Assembly: GCF_019429335.1 (NCBI RefSeq)
Contig: NZ_JAHYJB010000014.1
Location: forward strand, 1-42,008
DNA length: 42,008 nucleotides
Direction of reading: 5' to 3'
Source: Sulfurimonas sp.
GTDB lineage: Bacteria > Campylobacterota > Campylobacteria > Campylobacterales > Sulfurimonadaceae
In this document: positions 11,431 to 42,008 of the stretch, piece after piece
Layout of the letters: every line of letters starts with the position of its first letter
Numbering within the stretch: position 1 is the first letter of the stretch
The notes under the pieces: generated by a model
Told to the model about the DNA's origin: nothing
Seen by the model: only the letters and a program-made list of their open reading frames with translations
Databases searched by the model: none
Program-made: the position numbers and the translations under genes

Positions 11431-12237
11431 ATGAAAAAGTATGAGCAGATATCTGAGTATCTGCAACATTTTTTAAGTGATGAAGTTCGAAAAACAGGTA
11501 TACAAAATGTTGTTTTAGGACTTAGCGGCGGGATAGATTCGGCCGTAGTTGCTCTGCTTGCCCAAAGGGTCTTTAAGGGTAATTTGCTGTGCGTGAAGAT
11601 GCCATCGCAATACTCTTCACAAAGTTCGCTTGATGATGCTGATGAGTTATGCCGTGACTTTAATATCAATGCCATAACTGTCTCCATTGAGCCAATGCTT
11701 AGAGCTTATGAGGAGTTAAATCCTGATATGGACAACTTAAGATGCGGCAACCTCTCCGCACGTCTTAGAATGAGTACTATTTTTGATATTTCGGCAAAAC
11801 AGAGAGCTTTGGTTTTGGGAACAAGCAATAAGAGCGAGCTTATGCTTGGTTATGGAACCCTTTTTGGCGACCTCTCAAGCGCAATAAACCCGATAGGCGA
11901 TCTGTATAAGAGTGAAGTTTACGAGTTGGCAGAGTATCTTGGTGTAACAAAAAGCATTATAAATAAAGCTCCATCTGCCGATTTATGGAGCGGACAGAGT
12001 GATGAAGCCGATTTGGGCTATACGTACGCAGAGCTTGACAAAGCTCTAAAGCTCTATGTTGAAGACAGATTGAGCAAAGAAGAAATTGTTGAGATGGGAT
12101 GCGACAAAGATTTGATTGAGATGATAATTGAGAGAATATTTCGCAATCAGTTTAAGAGAAAGATGCCTCTTATCGCTAAATTGACATCTAGAACGATAAA
12201 CCACGATTTTAACTATCCAAGAGATATTAGACTATAA
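11431..12237 (+). CDS. nadE: NAD+ synthetase, ammonia-type
   Basis: A 268-residue N-type ATP pyrophosphatase that amidates nicotinic acid adenine dinucleotide to NAD+, the last step of NAD synthesis. The P-loop is SGGIDS (32-37); further family segments are LGTSNKSELMLGYGT and the APSADLWSGQSDE loop. There is no N-terminal glutaminase domain, so ammonia is the expected nitrogen donor. Length is normal for this short type. It heads a four-gene plus-strand run with an aminotransferase, lpxK and argB. Confidence 0.96.
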   Translation: MKKYEQISEYLQHFLSDEVRKTGIQNVVLGLSGGIDSAVVALLAQRVFKGNLLCVKMPSQYSSQSSLDDADELCRDFNINAITVSIEPMLRAYEELNPDMDNLRCGNLSARLRMSTIFDISAKQRALVLGTSNKSELMLGYGTLFGDLSSAINPIGDLYKSEVYELAEYLGVTKSIINKAPSADLWSGQSDEADLGYTYAELDKALKLYVEDRLSKEEIVEMGCDKDLIEMIIERIFRNQFKRKMPLIAKLTSRTINHDFNYPRDIRL

Positions 12238-12247
12238 GGATGAAGCA

Positions 12248-13369
12248 ATGAAAGTTGAATTTTGTAAATATGAGAGTAGCAGAGATGCACATTCAAATGT
12301 TAGTGACGTTTTAGACGGCGAAAATAGTGATCAAGTGAAAGAGCTTGAGAAAGAGTTTATCTCATATATAGGATCAAAGTACGCGCTTGCTACTTCACAT
12401 GGGACTTCTGCGCTTCATTTGGCAATGCTGGCACTTGATTTAAAACGCGGCGACAAAGTTGTCTGTTCCGTAAATGCGCACCCTAAAGTTCCTGAGGTTG
12501 TCCGCCATTTTGATGCGGAGCCTGTTTTTATAGATATTGATTCCCAAACTTATAATATAAATCTTGACAAGCTGGAGACATATCTAGAAGACAACAAAGC
12601 CAAGAAACTGAAAGCAGTTATAGTTACTCACGTAGCAGGTCAATGCGTTGATTTGAGCAGATTGTACAATATGGCAAAGATATATGACGTAAAAATCGTA
12701 GAGGACGCAAGCGAAGCTCTGGGTGCGACATATCAAGGCAAAAAAATAGGTTCTACTGGAGCAGATATAACATGTTTTAACTTCTCGTCTCACCTAAAAA
12801 AAGATGTTTGCAACGGCGGTATGCTTGTTTCAAACAGCGAAGAGATAATAGAGCGTGCAAAACTTTTAAATTCGCACGGAATGACAAGAGATAAAGATTC
12901 GCTAGATTATGTTTATGACGTTATCGATATCGGATTTGACTACTCGATGAGCCAGTTGGATGCCGCATATATAAGAGCAAAAATTAAGGAGCAGGATAAA
13001 AACCTAAAGAGAGTTAAAGAGATAGCAGAGATGTACAACAAGGCTCTTGATGGTGTTGCTCACATCGCTATACCAAGGCCAAATAGCGATGAGCATCCAT
13101 ACTCTCTCTATATAATAAAAGTGGATAAAAATAGAGACTCTTTTGCGCTTGAACTTAAAAAACACGGCATTGAAGTCGGTCTGCACTATATACCGCTTCA
13201 TTTTTTATCATACTATAAAAACAAATATGCACTAAAAGTAAATAATTTTCCAGTCGCACTTACGACGTATCAGCAGGTTATGTCTCTTCCGATATATTCT
13301 AGTATGCAGGATAAAGAGGTTCAGTTCGTTATAGACAAAATTAAATTAGTTGCTTCAACAAGAGTTTAG
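12248..13369 (+). CDS. DegT/DnrJ/EryC1-family PLP aminotransferase
   Basis: A 373-residue fold-type I sugar-aminotransferase-like enzyme. The early SHGTSALHLAMLAL segment holds the cofactor phosphate site, EDASEALGATYQGKKIGS is the family's PLP-ring Asp region, and the lysine expected to bind PLP lies in SSHLKKDVCNGG (about residue 180). In most relatives that segment reads like K-N-x-T-x-GEGG, so this version is divergent around the cofactor lysine. Such enzymes usually aminate a nucleotide-linked keto-sugar for surface polysaccharide. Placement between nadE and lpxK hints at lipid A or LPS sugar chemistry, but no sugar dehydratase is nearby. Confidence 0.85.
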   Translation: MKVEFCKYESSRDAHSNVSDVLDGENSDQVKELEKEFISYIGSKYALATSHGTSALHLAMLALDLKRGDKVVCSVNAHPKVPEVVRHFDAEPVFIDIDSQTYNINLDKLETYLEDNKAKKLKAVIVTHVAGQCVDLSRLYNMAKIYDVKIVEDASEALGATYQGKKIGSTGADITCFNFSSHLKKDVCNGGMLVSNSEEIIERAKLLNSHGMTRDKDSLDYVYDVIDIGFDYSMSQLDAAYIRAKIKEQDKNLKRVKEIAEMYNKALDGVAHIAIPRPNSDEHPYSLYIIKVDKNRDSFALELKKHGIEVGLHYIPLHFLSYYKNKYALKVNNFPVALTTYQQVMSLPIYSSMQDKEVQFVIDKIKLVASTRV

Positions 13370-13387
13370 TTCTATGTTAGATTATCT

Positions 13388-13422
13388 GCCGCTTTATGCG
13401 GCTAGCTTTAGTGGCAAAGCGG
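13388..13422 (+). other. Spacer with mutually exclusive stem-loops
   Basis: The 104-base spacer before lpxK contains gccgc/gcggc (13388-13392 with 13398-13402), gcttt/aaagc (13405-13409 with 13416-13420) and an overlapping 7-bp alternative ccgcttt/aaagcgg (13389-13395 with 13416-13422). No T run follows. It could be an attenuator-like structure or a decayed repeat; part of it (tagctttagtg, 13403-13413) recurs at 33165-33175. Confidence 0.3.
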
Positions 13423-13473
13423 TTTATCCTCCTTGGTCGAGGGCTAGTGTAGCATTAACGGACTTGTTCGTAG

Positions 13474-14397
13474 ATGCGTAAAATAGTCGTTTTTTGGGTT
13501 GAAAAGTACTTTTACAACCCAAGCCTAGTACAAAAAGCACTCTCCTTTTTACTCCTGCCGCTTAGCTGGATTTACTGTTTTTGCATGTACCTAAGATTTA
13601 AGAGCCTCAAGAGCAGAGATTTCGGCATAGACATAATCAGTATAGGAAATTTAAGTGTCGGCGGAAGCGGCAAAACGCCTCTGGTGACTGCACTTGCTTC
13701 AAGATACAAAGACGTTGGGATAATTCTTCGCGGATATGGGCGTAAAAGCAGCGGAGTAGTAGTGGTGAGCAGCGGCGGCAAAATTTTATGCGGTGTAGAT
13801 GCAAGCGGCGATGAGGCCATGATTTATGCATATAAACTCCCGAACGCAAAAGTAATAGTCGGTGAAAATAGGGTAGATGCTATTTTAAAAGCCAAAGAAA
13901 TGGGTGCAAAAATTCTATTTTTAGATGATGCATACTCAAAACACGATATAAAAAAACTGGATATTCTTATAGATGTGCAAAGCAAAAACACATCTTGTTT
14001 GCCGTCAGGACCCTTTAGAGAGAGGTTGTGGAGCGCAAAAGAGGCTGTTATCGTAAAAGAGGGAGTTGATTTTAAAAGAGTGGTTGAACTTAAAAATAAA
14101 AGTGATAAAATGTCACTCGTAACTGCCATAGCCAGACCGCAGAGGCTGAGTGCATACCTGCCCGAGGTTGTGAGTAAAAACTATTTCGAAGACCACCACT
14201 CGTTTGTCAGAAATGAGGTTTTGGATATTCTTCAAAGAGACGGCTCAAGCTCAATTTTGGTGACATACAAAGATTTTGTAAAGCTTGAAGAGTTTAATCT
14301 GCCGCTCTCATTACTGGATTTACATGTAGAAGTTGATGAAAATATTTTTAAAATAGTAGATGATTATATAGGGAATAAAAATGCAAAAAAAGATTGA
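13474..14397 (+). CDS. lpxK: Tetraacyldisaccharide 4'-kinase LpxK
   Basis: A 307-residue membrane-associated kinase that phosphorylates the 4' position of the lipid A disaccharide. A hydrophobic N-terminal helix (about 22-40) anchors it at the inner membrane, followed by the P-loop SVGGSGKTPL (61-70) in the family-specific ISIGNLSVGGSGKTP context. Later segments (LRGYGRKSSG, GDEAMIYA, LFLDDAYSKHDIK) match LpxK, although the usual DDGFQ motif is changed to DDAYS. The ribosome-binding site is poor. The 3' end overlaps argB by 17 bases. I recall nadE next to lpxK in C. jejuni. Confidence 0.92.
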   Translation: MRKIVVFWVEKYFYNPSLVQKALSFLLLPLSWIYCFCMYLRFKSLKSRDFGIDIISIGNLSVGGSGKTPLVTALASRYKDVGIILRGYGRKSSGVVVVSSGGKILCGVDASGDEAMIYAYKLPNAKVIVGENRVDAILKAKEMGAKILFLDDAYSKHDIKKLDILIDVQSKNTSCLPSGPFRERLWSAKEAVIVKEGVDFKRVVELKNKSDKMSLVTAIARPQRLSAYLPEVVSKNYFEDHHSFVRNEVLDILQRDGSSSILVTYKDFVKLEEFNLPLSLLDLHVEVDENIFKIVDDYIGNKNAKKD

Positions 14398-19377: not shown

Positions 19378-20682
19378 TTGAGAAGAAGCAGATCGTTTAT
19401 ACCTACAGCAAAAGAGGCGCCATCTGATGCAACTTTGCCGTCGCATAAATTTTTAATAAGGGGCGGTTTTATCAATCAACATGGTGCCGGACTTTACAAT
19501 TTTATGCCACTTGGAAAGATAGTGCTTGAAAAAATCAGAGCTATCGTAAAAGAGGAGCTTGACAATGCCGGCTGCTTGGAAGTTCAGCTTAGTTTTGTAA
19601 CTCCTATCGGTTTATGGGAGAGAAGCGGTCGCTGTGAAACAATGGGAAAAGAGATGCTTCGCATAAAAGACAGACACGAAAACGAGTTTGTGCTTAGTCC
19701 CACAAATGAAGAGGCTATGGTTGAGCTGGTAAAAAACAGAGTAACTAGCTATAAAGATTTGCCTCTAAACTTGTACCAGATTAATACCAAGTTCCGTGAT
19801 GAAGCAAGACCAAGATACGGGCTTATGCGCGGAAGAGAATTTTTAATGAAAGACGGTTACTCTTTTCACTCATCACAAGAAGATATGATAAGAGAATTTG
19901 ACTTGATGCAAGTGACATATAAAAAGATTTTCACAAGACTAGGGCTTGACTTTAGAGTAGTTGCGGCGGATAGCGGAGCAATAGGCGGAGAAGGAAGCAA
20001 GGAGTTTCACGTATTGGCAAACAGCGGTGAAGATACTCTTGTCGTATGTGAGGCATGCGATTACGGCGCAAATATCGAGACTATATTTGAGAGCGAAGAG
20101 GAGATTGATACGCTTAGAGCAAAATCTTATGATGAACTTCAAGAGCTAAGTATTGAAAAACGCTGCTCATGTGGAGCCGAGTTACATTTTAAAAAAGGGA
20201 TTGAAGTAGGACATATTTTTCAATTGGGCACAAAATATTCCGCTGCGCTAGAAGCACATTTCAGCGATGAAAACGGCAGAACTAAACCTTTTGAGATGGC
20301 AACATTCGGCATAGGTGTGAGCAGGCTTGTAGCAGCTGTTATTGAGCAAAATCATGATGAAAACGGTTGTATCTGGACAAAAGCGACTGCGCCTTATTTG
20401 GTAAATATTATGATTTCAAATATTAAAGACGCCGCTCAGGTCAGCCTTGGTGAAGAGCTATATGCAAAACTCAAAGATTCAAATGTAGATGTTATGCTTG
20501 ATGACTCCAAAGAGAGATTTGGATTTAAGATGAAAGATGCGGAGCTTATCGGTTTCCCGTACACGATTGTCATAGGTAAAGAGCTTGAAAGCGGACTGGT
20601 GCAGATATTTAACAGAAGAGCAAAAGAGAGTCTCTCCGTTAAAGCTGATGAGATTTACTCAAAAATAATGGAACTTTTGTAA
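19378..20682 (+). CDS. proS: Prolyl-tRNA synthetase lacking the INS editing domain
   Basis: A 434-residue class II synthetase of the bacterial type. The catalytic core is intact: motif 2 [52 protein letters not shown] and motif 3 [15 protein letters not shown], followed by the anticodon-binding domain. Bacterial ProRS is normally about 570 residues because an insertion of about 180 residues (INS), which removes mischarged alanine, sits between motifs 2 and 3. Here only about 40 residues (233-271) stand there. Two cysteine pairs, C224/C227 and C263/C265, flank them and might bind zinc. The frame is clean. Start is TTG with an aaggaag ribosome-binding site, directly after hemA. Confidence 0.95.
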
Positions 20683-20683
20683 T

Positions 20684-21112
20684 ATGATTTATTTTCTTAT
20701 ATATCTCTTTTTTGAGGTTCTTATTTCCGTCAATATATCATCGGCAATCGGGGGGCTAGCAACTTTTTTTGAGATAATTTTAAGCGCTTTTTTTGGAATA
20801 GCGATACTTGTTAATTTCAAATCAACACTTAGGGAAAATTTTACGGCGGTCTCTTACAGCTGCATAGATTTAAAACAGTTCCAGAGTCTAAACCTCTTTA
20901 CGATTTTTGGAGCGATACTGCTTATTGCTCCTGGATTTTTAACCGATATAATAGGTGTTTTGTTACAATTTAGCGTATTTACCACTATGCTTGTTAATCG
21001 TTATAATGTAAAATCAAACAGATGTAAAGAAGATTACGAAAACAACAATAGAGAAAAGGATATTAATGTCATCGATGTTGAAATTATTAGCGACAACACT
21101 CACGCTAAGTAG
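20684..21112 (+). CDS. FxsA-family membrane protein
   Basis: A 142-residue inner-membrane protein with hydrophobic helices at about 2-17, 30-50 and 75-105, and a charged cytoplasmic tail ending INVIDVEIIS..., the ending typical of FxsA proteins. The LLIAPGFLTDIIGVLLQF segment is the family's best-conserved stretch. In E. coli FxsA is known for easing phage T7 exclusion by F plasmid; its normal role is unclear. One base separates it from proS. Its last 47 bases overlap the start of the Dsb-like gene in another frame. Confidence 0.88.
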   Translation: MIYFLIYLFFEVLISVNISSAIGGLATFFEIILSAFFGIAILVNFKSTLRENFTAVSYSCIDLKQFQSLNLFTIFGAILLIAPGFLTDIIGVLLQFSVFTTMLVNRYNVKSNRCKEDYENNNREKDINVIDVEIISDNTHAK

Positions 21113-21896
21113 CCTCTTGTGGGCAGATTCTTCAACTCTAGAGGTTGAGAAGTTTTTAAAAGACACCTATAGCGCCAACCCGAATATAAAATCGATAAAC
21201 GTTAAGGTTACAAACGTAACAGAAGTTAAGGGATTTGAGGATTGGAGTGCATATTATGTCGAGCTTGATGCGATGCTTAAAAAAGAGAAGCGCCAAGTTG
21301 TTCAGAAGATGGTCTGGTTTTCAGACGGTAAGATTATCTCAAAAGAGCTTTTTGATTTGCAGAGCGGTCAAAATTTGAACGAGTTTGTCTCAGTGCCTTT
21401 TAAAGATGAGTTTTATAAAAAAGAGAATCTAATCTACGGAAATGCAAACGCAAAATATAAAGTTGCTATTTTTTCAGACCCGCTCTGCCCGTTTTGCAGA
21501 ACCTTTGTCCCAGAGGCGATAGAGTACATGAAAAAAGAGCCAAACAAGTTTGCAATCTACTATTTTCACTTTCCGCTAGATTCGCTACATCCTGCTGCCG
21601 TAGAGCTGGTTAAGGCCGCTATAGCGCTTGAGTTAAAGGGTAGAAAAGATGTTCTTCTTGACCTTTACAAGGTAAAAGTGGATCCTAAAGAGAAGTCGAA
21701 CGAGAAGATATTGGCAGAGTTTAACAAAGTTATGAAATCAGATATCAAGATGTTTGAACTTATGTCAAAAGAGGTTGTAGCACACTTAAAAAGTGACTTG
21801 GCTATAGCGGATGCGCTCATGGTTAACGGAACTCCTACAATTTTCTTTGACGGGCATATAGATAAAACAAAAAATAAGTATAAAGAGGCAAAATAG
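21066..21896 (+). CDS. Periplasmic DsbC/DsbG-like thiol oxidoreductase
   Basis: A 276-residue exported protein. Residues 1-20 form a signal peptide (LLATTLTLSSLLWA). An N-terminal domain (about 25-115) resembles the dimerisation region of DsbC-like proteins. The thioredoxin-fold domain follows, with active site CPFC (C141 and C144, in DPLCPFCRTF) and the cis-proline loop GTPTIFFDG near the end. It should form or rearrange disulfides in the periplasm. The ATG at 21066 has an aaaagga site upstream and overlaps fxsA by 47 bases; ATG 21075 is a less likely alternative. The hemC ATG follows its stop with no gap. Confidence 0.88.
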   Translation: MSSMLKLLATTLTLSSLLWADSSTLEVEKFLKDTYSANPNIKSINVKVTNVTEVKGFEDWSAYYVELDAMLKKEKRQVVQKMVWFSDGKIISKELFDLQSGQNLNEFVSVPFKDEFYKKENLIYGNANAKYKVAIFSDPLCPFCRTFVPEAIEYMKKEPNKFAIYYFHFPLDSLHPAAVELVKAAIALELKGRKDVLLDLYKVKVDPKEKSNEKILAEFNKVMKSDIKMFELMSKEVVAHLKSDLAIADALMVNGTPTIFFDGHIDKTKNKYKEAK

Positions 21897-35860: not shown

Positions 35861-36339
35861 TGCGAAAGATTCTAAAATGGCTCACTCCTCTCATAGCGTT
35901 AGGGGTAGCTGTTTTTATCATTTTTTTTCTTATTTCAATTAACTCAAATGAGACCTATATAAGACTCTCTCCGCTAGAGCACAAAAGCAGCGCAACAGTA
36001 GGAGAGGCTAAAAAAGTTTGGTTGAACCATTTTTCAAAGTCAGAAAAACTGGGATACTTCTATCCTGTCAATGAGGTTTTTATTCAAGTTGATTTGAATG
36101 AGAAAATAGTAAGCCAAACTGTATACAAACTCTCAGCACCGATATTGGACCCATATCAACTCTTCTGTTTAAAAGAGGAGTTAAAGCAACATCGATTAAA
36201 GTATTATCTAAAAAAAGATAAGAGCGGTGCTGAGCTGCTAATTTTCTCAAAGGACAGAGATAAACTAAATTCTCTAGTCGAAGTGTTAAAAAATTATCAA
36301 ATTTCAGCCAATGTCGGGCTGTACAAAGAGGATACGTAA
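35860..36339 (+). CDS. Single-pass membrane protein of unknown function
   Basis: A 159-residue protein with an N-terminal transmembrane helix (about 8-27) and a soluble, probably periplasmic, domain of about 130 residues. The end (LLIFSKDRDKLNSLVEVLKNYQISANVGLY) has the alternating strand-helix-strand look of a small alpha/beta fold, a little like SPOR domains, but I cannot assign it. The start is GTG overlapping the rpsA stop by one base and the stop shares a base with the serA ATG (taATG), so all three are coupled. An unknown membrane protein sits in the same place in C. jejuni (Cj0892c). Confidence 0.75.
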   Translation: MRKILKWLTPLIALGVAVFIIFFLISINSNETYIRLSPLEHKSSATVGEAKKVWLNHFSKSEKLGYFYPVNEVFIQVDLNEKIVSQTVYKLSAPILDPYQLFCLKEELKQHRLKYYLKKDKSGAELLIFSKDRDKLNSLVEVLKNYQISANVGLYKEDT

Positions 36340-37928
36340 TGCAAAAATATACTATAGTTGTTTGTGATCATATTCACGAAGCGGGTTTAGAGATGCTTCG
36401 CAATGATGAGAATATAAATTTTGTTATGGCTGCTGATGAAGACAAAGTAAAACTTTTAGACATTATCAAAAACGCTGATGTCGCAATAACAAGAAGTTCG
36501 ACTGATGTTGATGATAAGTTTATTGCTGCAGCAAAAAATATGAAAGCTATCGTGCGAGCAGGCGTTGGTGTTGACAATGTTGATATCCAAGGGTGTTCAA
36601 AAGAGGGAATAATTGTTATGAATGTTCCTACTGCAAACACTATTGCGGCGGTTGAACTAACCATGACGCATATGCTCTCATGTATGAGAATGTTTCCATA
36701 TTCACACAACCATCTAAAACATGATAGAGTGTGGAAAAGAGAGAAGTGGTACGGATATGAGATGAAGGGTAAGAAGCTCGGTGTTATCGGTTTTGGAAAT
36801 ATCGGAAGCCGCGTAGCAAAAAGAGCTCAGGCGTTTGAGATGGATATCGTCGCTTACGACCCATATATAAACCCTTCAAAAGTAACAGACTGCAATATGG
36901 TATACACTAAGAACTTTGAAGATATTTTAGCGTGCGATATTATTACTATCCACACGCCTAAAAATAAAGAGACTGTTAATATGATAGACAAAAAAGAGAT
37001 TGCAAAGATGAAAGACGGCGTGGTTTTAATCAACTGTGCTAGAGGTGGTCTCTACAACGAAGATGCTCTTTATGAGGGGCTAACAAGCGGTAAAATTCGT
37101 TTTGCAGGAATTGACGTATTTATGAAAGAACCTGCTACAAATCATCCGCTTCTTGACCTTGACAATGTAACTGTATCTCCTCACTTGGGTGCAAATACAT
37201 ATGAGTCTCAGTATAACATCGGTGTTCAGGCGGCTGAAAACGCAATTGCTGCAGCTAAGGGAATCTCTTACGCACACGCTATGAATCTTCCGATTGACGA
37301 GAGCAAAATACCGCCGTTTGTAAAACCGTTCTTGGAGATGGGGCAGAAGATTGGTTTCTTAGAATCTCAGCTTAACAAATCCCAGATTATCTCCATAAAA
37401 GTAAGCGGGCAGGGAGAGATTGCAAAATATGTAGACTCTCTTGCTACATTTGTTGCAGTAGGCGCGATGAGCCAAGTAAGTGATGACACTATCAACTATG
37501 TAAATGCTGATTTTATAGCAAAAGAGAAAGGTATCAAGGTTGAGTTTGAAGCGCTTCACGACTCATCTGTTTATAAAAATCTAATCACTATAAAACTGAC
37601 TACGGCTGAGGGCGGAACGACTACAATCAGCGCTACAATTTTTGATGATAACGTATTTAGAATCGTATCAATAGACGGCTTTGATATCGAGGTTGCTATT
37701 AAAGGCGACATGGTAATACTTAAAAACCAAGACGTTCCGGGTGTTATCGGAAACATCGGTTCTACTCTGGCAAAACACAATGTGAATATAGCGGACTTCT
37801 CGCTTGCTAGAAACGACAAAAAACAGGCACTCGCCGTTATTTTGGTTGACAGCATTATAAGTGATGTAACGCTAAGCGAACTGCTAAAAATTGACGCTTG
37901 TTTAAGCGTTCAGTACGCTAGATTATAG
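36339..37928 (+). CDS. serA: D-3-phosphoglycerate dehydrogenase
   Basis: A 529-residue NAD-dependent enzyme that oxidises 3-phosphoglycerate in the first step of serine synthesis. The Rossmann motif is GVIGFGNIGSRVA (about 148-160); NCARGGLYNEDAL and the His in PHLGANTYES are the catalytic region. After about residue 315 come the allosteric substrate-binding (intervening) domain and a C-terminal ACT domain (NQDVPGVIGNIGS), the long type usually inhibited by serine. Translationally coupled to the preceding membrane protein. Converges on the efflux operon across a structured spacer. Confidence 0.97.
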   Translation: MQKYTIVVCDHIHEAGLEMLRNDENINFVMAADEDKVKLLDIIKNADVAITRSSTDVDDKFIAAAKNMKAIVRAGVGVDNVDIQGCSKEGIIVMNVPTANTIAAVELTMTHMLSCMRMFPYSHNHLKHDRVWKREKWYGYEMKGKKLGVIGFGNIGSRVAKRAQAFEMDIVAYDPYINPSKVTDCNMVYTKNFEDILACDIITIHTPKNKETVNMIDKKEIAKMKDGVVLINCARGGLYNEDALYEGLTSGKIRFAGIDVFMKEPATNHPLLDLDNVTVSPHLGANTYESQYNIGVQAAENAIAAAKGISYAHAMNLPIDESKIPPFVKPFLEMGQKIGFLESQLNKSQIISIKVSGQGEIAKYVDSLATFVAVGAMSQVSDDTINYVNADFIAKEKGIKVEFEALHDSSVYKNLITIKLTTAEGGTTTISATIFDDNVFRIVSIDGFDIEVAIKGDMVILKNQDVPGVIGNIGSTLAKHNVNIADFSLARNDKKQALAVILVDSIISDVTLSELLKIDACLSVQYARL

Positions 37929-37934
37929 ACTAAA

Positions 37935-38037
37935 CTAACAATATGAGCAAAGCCCATATTGTTAGGTAGGGAGAAACCCCTAAGGCTACACACATCATTA
38001 GGATGTGTGAGAAATAAGCTTCCCTTTAATTTTTTTT
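37935..38037 (+). terminator. Structured spacer after serA, ending in a T run
   Basis: Three stem-loops in a row: ctaacaatatg/catattgttag (37935-37945 with 37955-37965), taggg/cccta (37967-37971 with 37978-37982), and cacacatc/gatgtgtg (37989-37996 with 38002-38009). The agggag of the second can instead pair with cttccct near 38019-38025, just before eight T (38030-38037). It most likely ends serA transcription, but it is more elaborate than a plain terminator. Confidence 0.5.
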
Positions 38038-38046
38038 AGAAAACTT

Positions 38047-39735
38047 CTACTCATCATCCAAATTAAAATGTCTATTTAAATCAGCTTTATAGAGCAGTAT
38101 CGGAACGATAATCAAGGATGCGATAACCGCTGCAATTGTTCCAAATATAAGAGCAACTCCAAGACCGCCAAATACTGCGTCACCGGCTAAAAGAGTCGAA
38201 GCAAGTATAATGGCTGCGGCGGTGAGAAAAATAGGTTTTGCGCGCGTTGCCGTAGCGTATGCAATCGCTTCAGCTTTTGGCATCTTCTCGTCTCTCATCA
38301 AAGAGGCTGTAAAGTCAATCAATAAAAGAGAGTTTCTTGAACTTATCCCGATAAGCGCTATAAAACCTATGAGCGACGTAGCAGTTAAAAAGAATGTATC
38401 CGAGGTGAAGAGATCCATTATGTAGTGTCCTACAATTACGCCGATAATTGATAAAAATGAGCCTAGAAGTATGATGCCGCTAAGTGTGTAGCTTTTATAA
38501 TAGATAACCATCAGTAAAAATATAAGCACAAGTGCTGCGATAAAAGCAGCTCCCAGCTCGACAAAAGTATCAAGAGTTACCTCCATCTCACCGTCCCAAA
38601 TCAGCTCATAAACTTGTCTGCTCTCTTTATCAGTTAGCTTAAGATTAAAGAGACCTGTTTTTTCTATCTCATATCTGTCGTCAAATGTCTTCAATATCGT
38701 ATCTCTTGCTTCCATAAGAGGGTAAACCTGAGAGACCATATCCGTCTCCGCCATTACGTTTGTCATCTTGTGGAGATTTTTGCTCATAATCATAGGGTTT
38801 GATTTTTTTGGCACGATAGAGACCAGCTCCGTAATAGGCGTCATCATGCCCATCTCATTCATCAGTTTTAGAGATGATAGTTTTGCATTAATGGCATTTA
38901 TATCTTTTGATGAGAATTTTTTGGACTCAAGGCCCAAAGAGAGGTAGATTGGTATCTGGTCGTTTGCCACATCAGAGTTTTTGACAGCTATCTGCATCCC
39001 CTCAAATGCAAGGTATAAAATGTCGTTTAGCTGTTTTATATTTACACCCGAGAGTGATGCTTTTGTGCTGTCAACTTCAACCTCAAACGTGTCATAAATA
39101 TCATCTTGCATAATCTCTACGTCAACAAGCCCAGCCGTGTTTTTAAAGACATCAGCTACTCTAAGGGAGAGCTCTCTGATGCCATCACTCTCTTGACCAT
39201 AAACTTCCGCCACAATTGCAGCTAAAACAGGAGGACCGGCAGGAGGCTCTACGAATGTGATGGTTGTGTTGCTATGGAGCTGCGTACACTCATTTTGGAT
39301 AAGCGGTCTTACTCTTTGAACCATAAAGTACGATGGCTCGTCACGGTGGTGTTTTTTTGTAAGATTTACGACTATTTCCGCCACATTTTCGCTGTTTTTA
39401 AAGTGAGAACCCTTGATTAGTCCTGCAAAATCAAGCGGAGCTCCCATGCCCAAAAATATCTCAAAATCGGTTATCTCTTTCTCTTTTTTAAGATGACCGG
39501 ATATGCACTCAGCTACTCTGGTAGTCTGCTCTATTGAGCTTCCCTCTGAGAGAGTTGCATAGATAGTGAATGTGTCGTTATTTTTCCCAGGAAGCATCTT
39601 TGCCAAAACCATCTTGCTCGGCGCAATCATAAGCACGGAGAGTATAAATGCCGCTAGCGTCGCTGCTAAGATTAGGTTTCTTTTTTTTGGGTTTTGGATA
39701 CCCTCAAAAACCGTATCTTGAAATTTTTTAAACAT
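38047..39735 (-). CDS. RND efflux permease, C-terminal half
   Basis: A 562-residue polypeptide equal to the second repeat of an AcrB-like pump: a first membrane helix (TM7 equivalent, about 19-42), a large periplasmic porter loop (to about 385), then five helices (TM8-TM12). TM10 carries GISSRNSLLLIDF, where AcrB has its essential lysine (here Arg), and KPIFLTAAAII keeps the conserved Thr. The ATG overlaps the stop of the N-terminal half by one base (TGATG on the minus strand) and has its own AGGAG eight bases upstream. It should work only together with the other half. Confidence 0.9.
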   Translation of the reverse strand: MFKKFQDTVFEGIQNPKKRNLILAATLAAFILSVLMIAPSKMVLAKMLPGKNNDTFTIYATLSEGSSIEQTTRVAECISGHLKKEKEITDFEIFLGMGAPLDFAGLIKGSHFKNSENVAEIVVNLTKKHHRDEPSYFMVQRVRPLIQNECTQLHSNTTITFVEPPAGPPVLAAIVAEVYGQESDGIRELSLRVADVFKNTAGLVDVEIMQDDIYDTFEVEVDSTKASLSGVNIKQLNDILYLAFEGMQIAVKNSDVANDQIPIYLSLGLESKKFSSKDINAINAKLSSLKLMNEMGMMTPITELVSIVPKKSNPMIMSKNLHKMTNVMAETDMVSQVYPLMEARDTILKTFDDRYEIEKTGLFNLKLTDKESRQVYELIWDGEMEVTLDTFVELGAAFIAALVLIFLLMVIYYKSYTLSGIILLGSFLSIIGVIVGHYIMDLFTSDTFFLTATSLIGFIALIGISSRNSLLLIDFTASLMRDEKMPKAEAIAYATATRAKPIFLTAAAIILASTLLAGDAVFGGLGVALIFGTIAAVIASLIIVPILLYKADLNRHFNLDDE

Positions 39736-41318
39736 CAGTGCTTCTCCTCAGCGTGAAAATCAGGTTTTTTTAACATTCTAGCCGCCAAATATGGTGTAAA
39801 AATATATGCTACAAAAAGTGAAGCGACAAGAGCAACGGGAACATTTGCGGGAATCGGTTTCATAAACTGTCCCATCATCTGCCCGACAAACGCCATTGGA
39901 ATCATCGTCATAATAATCGCCAGAGTCGCTATATTTGTCGGCGGTCCTATCTCATCCGTCGCCTCTATCATTATGTCGTCAACACTTTTGTTTGCCGAGG
40001 ATTTTGAGTGGTAGTGTCTGTGAATATTTTCAATAACGATAATAGCCGCATCAACCAAAAGCCCAAGTGAAAGAAGGAATGCAAAAAGGGTTATTCTGTT
40101 GATGGTCTGTCCTGTCAGATAAGCCACAAAAATGGTAATTGCCAAAATCGCGGGAACTGTAAAGGTTACTATAAGAGACTCTCTCCAGCCAAGCACGAGA
40201 ACTAGCAAAATCGCTATGATTACAATGGACAAAAGAAGGTGAAAGACAAGCTCGTTTACAGCTTCATTTGCTCTCTCTCCGTCGTTTCTTGTTATAACGT
40301 AGCCGATGTCGTTATTCTGTAAAAACTCTCTATAACTCTCTAGCTCGCTCTTAACTGCATCCGCGATAACTACTGCATTTGTGCCTTGAAGTTTTGAGAC
40401 GCTGAGCGTTACTTGGTTTTGCAGCGGCGAAAACTCTCCGTTATTATCTTTTTGGCTTATGCTTGCCGATTTGAAATTTTGTATGTCGTAAGAGCTTGTA
40501 ACTTTTGCGATTTGTCTTAGATAAATCGCAGAGCCCATATATTTTGCGATAATGATATTGCCTATATCATCTTCGCTCTCGATGGCATTTTTAACCCCGA
40601 GCATTATTATCTCATTCTCTTTGGTTCTGTTTTTTACAGCAGGAACGCTGTATGAGAGCGATTGAACCCCTTGGACAATCTGCCCCATTGAGATGTTGTA
40701 TCCTGAGAGTTTGTTCAGGTCTACTTCGATGTTAAACTGTCTTCTGTTTCCGCCTTTTAACTCAGTCACGGCGACGTTTTTTAGCCCGTTAATGTGGTGC
40801 TGAATATCTTTTACCCTCTCATAAAGCTCTGTTTTGCTCATGTTTTCGTTTTTTGAGTAAAAAGCTACGGATACAACTGGGATATCTACGTCGATATCAA
40901 GCGGTTTGATTATCGGATTCATCGCACCACGAGGAAACATGTCAGAGTTTTGCATGATTTTGTCATAAATCTTTAGGTTTGAGTTCTCTTTTGCCTCTCC
41001 TATAAAAAACGCTGCGTTTACGATGCCGACACTGTCCATAGCCATGCTTGAGATGTTCTCAACGCCTTTGACCTCTTTTAGTTTTCTCTCTAAGGGTTTG
41101 ACAATAACTCTTTGAATCTCGGCGGCGCTTGCTCCGGGAAGTGCGACAATTACGGTTGAGCCGCTTACTACCATCTGAGGGTTCTCTTCGCGCGGCATAA
41201 CATTTAGTGCGAGATATCCGATGGAGAGCAAAAATATGCCAAGAACAACGGTTAGCGGATTGCGCAAAAATCCTGCCGCGAGTTTTCCTGCAATATCTGT
41301 GGGTTCATAACTGCTCAT
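39735..41318 (-). CDS. RND efflux permease, N-terminal half
   Basis: A 527-residue polypeptide equal to the first repeat of an AcrB-like pump: TM1 (about 22-42), a long porter loop beginning MPREENPQ, then TM2-TM6, ending just after PYLAARML. TM4 has GLLVDAAIIVIENIHRHY: the first of AcrB's two proton-relay Asp is kept and the second is Ala, as in some heavy-metal (CusA-like) members. The substrate cannot be assigned; the porter loop looks more like multidrug types. The adaptor gene ends 10 bases upstream. Together with the C-terminal half it makes 1089 residues, the usual size of a full pump. Confidence 0.9.
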   Translation of the reverse strand: MSSYEPTDIAGKLAAGFLRNPLTVVLGIFLLSIGYLALNVMPREENPQMVVSGSTVIVALPGASAAEIQRVIVKPLERKLKEVKGVENISSMAMDSVGIVNAAFFIGEAKENSNLKIYDKIMQNSDMFPRGAMNPIIKPLDIDVDIPVVSVAFYSKNENMSKTELYERVKDIQHHINGLKNVAVTELKGGNRRQFNIEVDLNKLSGYNISMGQIVQGVQSLSYSVPAVKNRTKENEIIMLGVKNAIESEDDIGNIIIAKYMGSAIYLRQIAKVTSSYDIQNFKSASISQKDNNGEFSPLQNQVTLSVSKLQGTNAVVIADAVKSELESYREFLQNNDIGYVITRNDGERANEAVNELVFHLLLSIVIIAILLVLVLGWRESLIVTFTVPAILAITIFVAYLTGQTINRITLFAFLLSLGLLVDAAIIVIENIHRHYHSKSSANKSVDDIMIEATDEIGPPTNIATLAIIMTMIPMAFVGQMMGQFMKPIPANVPVALVASLFVAYIFTPYLAARMLKKPDFHAEEKH

Positions 41319-41328
41319 ATTTTAACCT

Positions 41329-42008
41329 TTAATCGATTACAACGGTTGCGTACATACCGGGATAAATAGATTTGTAGAGATTTTTAAATGATATTTTAAT
41401 CTTAAATGAGTGTGTCATAGGATTTGAGCTAGGTATGATTGCGCTTACGGTGCCGATTGCTTCTATGTTTTGCGAAGGAATGTTGATTTTTACCTTTTTC
41501 CCCTCTTTGATTAGAGATAGGTTGTCTTCTGATATCTCTGCAGAAATTTTTAGGTTTGTTAGGTCCGAGAGCTCAAGTGCAGGCATCCCAGGCATTGCCA
41601 TTTCGCCTACTTCTATGTTTTTTCTAACAATTACGCCGTTGTTTGGAGCGGTAATATTTAGGTAGCGGTACTGGTTTTTTACCTCTTCAAGCTGTGCCTG
41701 AGCCTGAGCGACCTGTTTTGTGGCAATAAAAATCATAGTCGCCAGATTTGCTTCGGCAAGAGCGAGATTTTCAACCTCAAATTTTGAGACCATATCTTTT
41801 TCTAATAGTCTTTTATGTCTCTCCAAATTTAACTTAACATTTGTATATTGGTTTTGATACATCTGAAGAGAGAGCTGTGCCTGAGAGATTCCAAGCTCAA
41901 CTTGAATTAGTGCAGAATCTATCTCTTTTGAGTCGATGGTATAGAGCAGGTCTCCCTTTTTAACCTCGTCGCCCTCTGATACTTTTACGTTTGTAACAAA
42001 TCCCATAA
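41329..42008 (-). CDS. RND periplasmic adaptor (HlyD/MFP family), N-terminally cut by the window
   Basis: About 226 residues of the C-terminal part of a membrane-fusion protein; the signal peptide and first residues lie beyond the window edge. The visible part starts in a lipoyl half-motif (VSEGDEVKKGDLLYTIDS), continues through an alpha-hairpin coiled coil, the returning lipoyl half (YLNITAPNNGVIVRKNIEVGEMA) and a beta-barrel domain. It bridges the inner-membrane RND pump to an outer-membrane TolC-type channel. The frame is open to the edge, so the first visible ATG is not the real start. Same strand and operon as the two pump halves. Confidence 0.9.
   Translation of the reverse strand, partial: MGFVTNVKVSEGDEVKKGDLLYTIDSKEIDSALIQVELGISQAQLSLQMYQNQYTNVKLNLERHKRLLEKDMVSKFEVENLALAEANLATMIFIATKQVAQAQAQLEEVKNQYRYLNITAPNNGVIVRKNIEVGEMAMPGMPALELSDLTNLKISAEISEDNLSLIKEGKKVKINIPSQNIEAIGTVSAIIPSSNPMTHSFKIKISFKNLYKSIYPGMYATVVID

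Follow-up and report, generated by a model that had tools for sequence, protein, structure and literature searches.

Two overlapping genes of Sulfurimonas probably encode the halves of one AcrB-like RND efflux permease

Two overlapping genes near the end of a 42,008-nucleotide stretch of Sulfurimonas sp. DNA (contig NZ_JAHYJB010000014.1; the whole stretch is called the window in the following) probably encode a functional pump built from two separate half-proteins. RND pumps are thought to stem from an in-gene duplication of a six-helix half-transporter. Our best reading of the locus is a two-subunit AcrB-like proton antiporter, i.e., a working RND efflux permease that went through one old fission and whose two polypeptides, half A and half B, would rebuild one protomer; we assign this reading a probability of roughly 85%. 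The split arrangement itself is old and conserved and is not a sequencing error.

On the minus strand of the window, the gene order is adaptor, half A, half B (Table 1), and the sequence read on this strand at the A/B junction is GAGGAGAAGCACTGATGTTTAAAAAATTT. The features described in the original prediction, namely two genes meeting in a TGATG, an AGGAG 8 nt before the second ATG and a second product opening with MFKKF, are all read directly in the sequence. The adaptor was assigned by TIGR01730 (119.7 bits, cut-off 94.9) and PF16576 (93 bits); its gene is truncated at the contig end (41329-42008), so that any channel gene beyond it is invisible in the window. Considering its count, the hairpin downstream of half B is a weak signal, with five such sites in the window compared with 3.8 expected in shuffled sequences. 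The convergent gene next to it was named serA-like by its look and by the presence of serA beside the Sulfurovum locus.

Table 1. Features of the split permease locus, in positions of the window
Feature	Position	Strand	Remarks
Half A	39735..41318	-	N-terminal half of RND permease, TM1-TM6 and first porter block (predicted); 527 aa
Half A stop codon TGA	39737-39735	-	
Half B	38047..39735	-	C-terminal half of RND permease, amphipathic helix, TM7-TM12 and second porter block (predicted); 562 aa
Half B start codon ATG	39735-39733	-	product begins MFKKF
TGATG stop/start overlap, A/B junction	39733..39737	-	A and B have one base in common
AGGAG, putative ribosome-binding site of half B	39744..39748	-	8 nt upstream of ATG
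Asp423 and Ala424 codons, half A	40047..40052	-	D423 at the AcrB D407 place, A424 at the D408 place; coordinates from codon number
Arg467 codon, half B	38335..38337	-	AcrB K940 place; coordinates from codon number
Periplasmic adaptor (membrane fusion protein)	41329..42006	-	truncated by contig end at 42008
Terminator-like hairpin	37935..37965	-	between half B and convergent serA-like gene; 14-pair stem and T-rich tail
Convergent gene downstream of half B	36339-37928		serA-like

Both halves are PF00873-type permeases by score, half A covering profile positions 10-493 with 251.3 bits and half B positions 530-1018 with 130.8 bits (cut-off 28). The halves were modelled singly with AlphaFold2 using 40 sequences each, almost exclusively halves taken from fused homologues, and reached a mean pLDDT of 80.6 (half A) and 85.2 (half B). 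The DSSP lines of both models contain an early long helix, a periplasmic block and later long helices, which we read as five membrane helices. On this reading, the models reproduce the predicted topology of six helices and one porter block per half with the split between TM6 and TM7, and taken together they would provide the twelve-helix, two-repeat layout of the family. Structural alignment by VIA-align placed residues 1-556 of half B on AcrB 522-1033 (Z 24.9, rmsd 3.2, 474 aligned), the alignment beginning at AcrB-type residue 522/523. Residues 13-519 of half A were placed on MdtF 2-500 (Z 24.8, rmsd 6.5, 461 aligned) and on AcrB 1-500 (Z 24.7, rmsd 6.9, 466 aligned); the larger rmsd of this half may be caused by domain placement in a lone half. 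Identity to AcrB-type chains ranged from 16 to 24% in the structural alignments listed. As the models cover AcrB-type residues 1-500 and 522-1033, the split sits in the TM6-TM7 loop, with half B retaining the short helix before TM7 in the model alignment. The PF00873 halves and the model alignments to the two halves of AcrB hence agree with the proposal of an RND pump split at its internal repeat. The family's usual, yet not strictly defining, single polypeptide is absent here, as two overlapping genes encode the repeats; most RND permeases hold both in one chain, according to PMC2891726. Against the HME model TIGR00914, A scores 130.9 and B 51.3 bits, the cut-off of 701.45 being set for full-length proteins and thus hardly within reach of a single half. 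A role in anti-phage defence was rejected, as PADLOC matches neither half.

The junction was compared across 81 split locus rows from ~78 distinct places (L049/L086, L051/L087 and L055/L088 being the same places), comprising the window, the 44 best half B matches of a genus and a phylum search, 33 loci picked among split copies for diversity and three named ones. Half A is directly followed by half B in every row. Relative to the end of the A stop, B starts at -1 in 50 rows, at -4 in 11, at -8 in six and within -38 to +10 in the other 14, using ATG in 75 and GTG in six rows. B is preceded by a ribosome-binding site of 4 nt or longer in 79 of the 81 rows, compared with 96 of 1,462 ATGs lying in frame inside A, B and fused genes, which served as controls in a nearly identical test; for 26 rows with several possible starts the best one was used, somewhat favouring the junctions, while the control took any motif occurrence in range, favouring the control. 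As far as sequence can tell, this pattern is that of translational coupling, retained while the exact overlap drifts, and there are strong indications that B is translated from a start of its own, in line with the re-initiation that had been postulated for the second gene. A His-rich stretch seems to open half B at its likely start in four rows (L103, L106, L109 and L127), hinting at metal binding at the cytoplasmic junction.

Alternatively, programmed frameshifting or stop read-through could yield a fused pump, with the split product being minor or incidental. The frames overlap at most loci, and in three rows (L103, L108 and L112) A and B stand in one frame across the stop, as read-through would require. 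However, the relative frame of A and B is 2 in 62, 1 in 16 and 0 in three of the 81 rows. The required shift thus differs among relatives, which speaks against a sequencing error as well as against a conserved programmed frameshift, and the latter was rejected on this ground. In addition, no slippery heptamer was seen by eye before the stop at the window's junction, and nearly every row provides B with a start and a ribosome-binding site of its own. We consider expression as a fused pump very unlikely.

The original prediction had itself named a one-base indel as the alternative to a genuine two-gene pump. In this case, the split would be a sequencing error or a fresh pseudogene of a gene fused in relatives. 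Taken alone, the junction would resemble an indel, and fused homologues do occur outside the phylum as well as in some of its own genomes. In contrast, a genus search with half B at 1e-20 returned a match in 122 of 135 genomes (75 of 79 good ones), and all matches listed lie in frames not exceeding 644 aa, including some truncated by contig ends, at 43-100% identity. Several of these split copies sit in single-contig genomes. The phylum search at 1e-12 gave a match in 185 of 397 genomes and none in 212, with frames of at most 676 aa among the matches listed (families f1, f3, f4 and f7 to f13). The same split was therefore recovered in relatives, as had been suggested as a check, for all matches listed in both searches; relatives that all carry a fused gene, named beforehand as the outcome speaking against a genuine split, were not what was found. 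Each of the six other RND genes of the window's genome forms one intact frame (1022-1057 aa), which, in combination with the split copies in single-contig genomes, renders a sequencing error not credible. Comparison of the window with 14 of 29 relatives' loci from the genus search gave dN/dS values of 0.025-0.051 for half A, computable in 12 of the 14 pairs, and of 0.040-0.083 for half B, computable in 13; these are rough values as dS was high. Both halves are under strong purifying selection. Considering the split relatives, their varying frame and this selection, the chance of an indel is next to negligible.

At 1e-20, 13 of the 135 genus genomes, including four of the 79 good ones, had no match, indicating that the pump is not essential to all of them. 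Two further weak PF00873 matches were observed in the window's genome, in frames of 531 and 832 aa with 29.6 and 23.5 bits (G000:C65:36707-37144 and G000:C50:363-806; L009 and L010); our guess is that these are perhaps other RND-superfamily proteins of SecD or MMPL type. One genus contig (G110:C73) hosts two half B matches of equal score ~7 kb apart (12233-13912 and 19458-21137), which may reflect either a recent duplication or the way the contig was assembled.

A closer look was taken at 18 selected phylum genomes with weaker or odd matches. Fused single frames of 1156-1181 aa were present in seven of seven f5 genomes examined, and a fused frame of 1077 aa in G484 (f10), while G465 gave a partial split-like match in a 412-aa frame. 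A further fused frame, of 1121 aa, came from the scan of named genomes described below (L130, a MAG). Matches between 1e-16 and the limit of 1e-8 had frames of 1011-1069 aa and represent ordinary fused paralogues, with one short exception in a 558-aa frame. Among plasmids, four of 64 records matching half B were examined, two being split (both Campylobacterota) and two, from Pseudanabaena and Roseibium, carrying single genes. The Sulfurovum mangrovi record holds TolC, adaptor, A and B consecutively, and pSULKU01 of Sulfuricurvum kujiense a TetR-type regulator, A and B. For both species, the halves already appear in public gene tables as distinct permease genes, two adjacent ones in the PLSDB table for S. 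mangrovi. In the annotation tables of L126 and L127, both split permease genes bear locus tags that do not fit the numbering of the adjoining genes; this suggests a later revision of the annotation at that spot, perhaps replacing a frameshift call. Across 33 diverse loci, an adaptor stands directly before A in 24 (matches >60 bits). A scan of named genomes was restricted to the 80 best of at least 587 loci ranked by likeness to the fused sequence L124. It retained 75 single frames >900 aa, four loci truncated at contig ends (three retaining portions of both A and B within a single frame, L198 only B) and one split locus from a Sulfurimonas MAG. Due to this ranking, split loci are under-reported, and rarer splits in other phyla may have escaped the scan.

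The first tree comprised 66 rows: 34 split ones including the window, eight fused ones of Campylobacterota and 24 of the fused ones from other phyla. All split rows fell on one side of a single branch (SH-aLRT 100), and trees of A alone and of B alone each contained one split/fused change. A mixture-model tree built from 34 of these rows supported the split clade with 100/100, and all of its 200 bootstrap trees (100%) needed a single change. The mixture-model tree also kept L116, at which a quick tree and the B-alone tree had flagged the meeting of long branches, inside the split clade. The branch leading to this clade measures ~1.0 change per site in the mixture-model tree, implying that much change accompanied or came after the fission. 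Other phyla and a sister clade have fused homologues. As the split rows form one clade and all rows outside are fused, one old fission within the phylum is the simplest reading of these unrooted trees. Distances of A and B correlate over 34 loci with r 0.94, in pairs that are not independent of each other.

The residues of the proton relay are shared out between the two halves. Asp423 and Ala424 of half A were placed by alignment to PDB chains. In half B, R467, R498 and T505 are, by local motif and the AcrB sequence, presumably the counterparts of AcrB K940, R971 and T978; R467 was likewise aligned to PDB chains, and one of these chains has Arg there as well. D423, R467 and R498 are conserved in 66 of 66 rows and T505 in 65. 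The HAE1 signature consists of D407 and D408 in TM4, K940, R971 and T978 (PMC2891726, section 10), and the window departs from it: the counterparts of D407, R971 and T978 are retained, with Ala at the D408 place and Arg at the K940 place. Arg at the latter place also occurs in one HAE1 cluster, and HME permeases have in TM4 a single Asp (monovalent type) or an extra D402 (divalent type; both PMC2891726, section 10). The window has a single TM4 Asp, as does CusA, but seven of the 34 split rows have Asp at both the D407 and D408 places. Overall, the D408 place of split rows is occupied by Ala (25), Asp (7) or Ser (2), compared with Ser in seven of eight fused Campylobacterota and Asp in 20 of 24 rows of other phyla. 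Loss of the second Asp is thus not strictly tied to the split. With Ala in this position, the proton site of the window differs from the textbook two-Asp one, and a different proton stoichiometry may result.

Each half having membrane helices and a porter block of its own, A and B could also be separate transporters working independently as homo-oligomers. Against this stands the distribution of the all but invariant relay residues over both proteins. According to PMC4359379, D407 and D408 of AcrB TM4 face K940, R971 and T978 in the other repeat and govern how the repeats engage, i.e., the counterparts act across the repeat interface. Since neither half owns the full relay set, the halves should need each other. 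The invariable adjacency of A and B in the 81 split rows and the parallel course of their distances point in the same direction, making independent transporters highly improbable.

The favoured reading of a two-chain AcrB-like pump would proceed from a permease gene fission in the TM6-TM7 loop in an ancestor within Campylobacterota. One message would now yield A and then B by translational coupling, the ribosome completing A and restarting at the overlapping or adjacent start of B, helped by the site inside the end of A. In the inner membrane, A and B would pair to one AcrB-like protomer, and three A-B pairs would presumably form the trimer docking with the adaptor and a TolC-type channel. For this assembly, the evidence is on the gene level: the adaptor adjoins A, and a TolC gene lies upstream in Sulfurovum mangrovi. 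Proton coupling would require both halves, with A giving the TM4 Asp (D423) and B the facing Arg467, Arg498 and Thr505. The parts of this scheme that we infer are the separate proteins, their pairing, the trimer, efflux and substrate. Furthermore, the fission might have created a novel type of RND pump, an obligate two-chain machine with halves that are exchangeable or dosed, with A of one operon and B of another forming hybrid pumps, or assembly being regulated. Some genomes, e.g., G009 and G037, do carry two split copies. This extension is speculative and on the whole unlikely; if true, hybrid A/B pumps could have new substrates.

Compared with known systems, the pump resembles the AcrB/MexB/CmeB-type (HAE1) and CusA/CzcA-type (HME) permeases in its half-by-half fold, the PF00873 match and the adaptor partner, and shares with them the TM4 G-x3-D-x6-E motif as well as counterparts of R971 and T978. 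It differs from them in comprising two genes rather than one and in the residues at the D408 and K940 places. A two-chain pump of this type has a precedent from the laboratory: Eda, Yoneyama and Nakae (2003) reportedly divided MexB artificially into two halves, which are reported to have worked when present together. In contrast to this construct, the split pump described here is natural, old and conserved. Fused homologues (f5, G484, MAG UBA6016; Chlorobiota, Bacteroidota, Nitrospirota, Pseudomonadota and others) are homologous to both halves, with 31-49% identity to A and 29-43% to B, and consist of one frame each, 1064-1181 aa long except for an outlier of 1444 aa. This outlier is an acidobacterial sequence (L170) extending >270 aa beyond the next longest of the set. 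Six fused f5 loci (L119-L123 and L125) carry a highly charged extension, perhaps a coiled coil, in their first 60-85 residues before the first membrane helix. The original prediction further envisaged a SecD/SecF-like two-subunit pump. The likeness holds for the gene layout, as SecD/SecF is one RND-superfamily machine of two chains with 2 x 6 helices (PMC8277102). It does not extend to sequence and neighbours, which are of the AcrB/CusA type and not Sec: half A scores 19.3 bits on the SecF model TIGR00966 (cut-off 160), half B is not listed for it, and the neighbours of the split pump are an adaptor and, in a relative, TolC.

Within the accessible open literature, most subscription journals being outside this scope, no description of a natural split of an AcrB-type permease was found. 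The available portions of PMC10092412, PMC4338810, PMC10290299, PMC8277102, PMC4359379 and PMC2891726 (including sections 10 and 11) likewise contain no naturally split AcrB-type permease. A paper on metal stress in Nitratiruptor names an RND transporter gene, for which no link to the split family was recognised (PMC10092412). What is unusual is the gene architecture; fold and proton-relay residues are largely ordinary.

For annotation, this means that pipelines expecting a permease of ~1050 aa may call the halves frameshifted or count them as two pumps. If true, a natural and conserved two-chain pump would show that evolution can do without a covalent connection of the two repeats. The split pump would thereby offer a ready system for studying how the repeats find their partners and how proton coupling is achieved when the interface is a non-covalent one.
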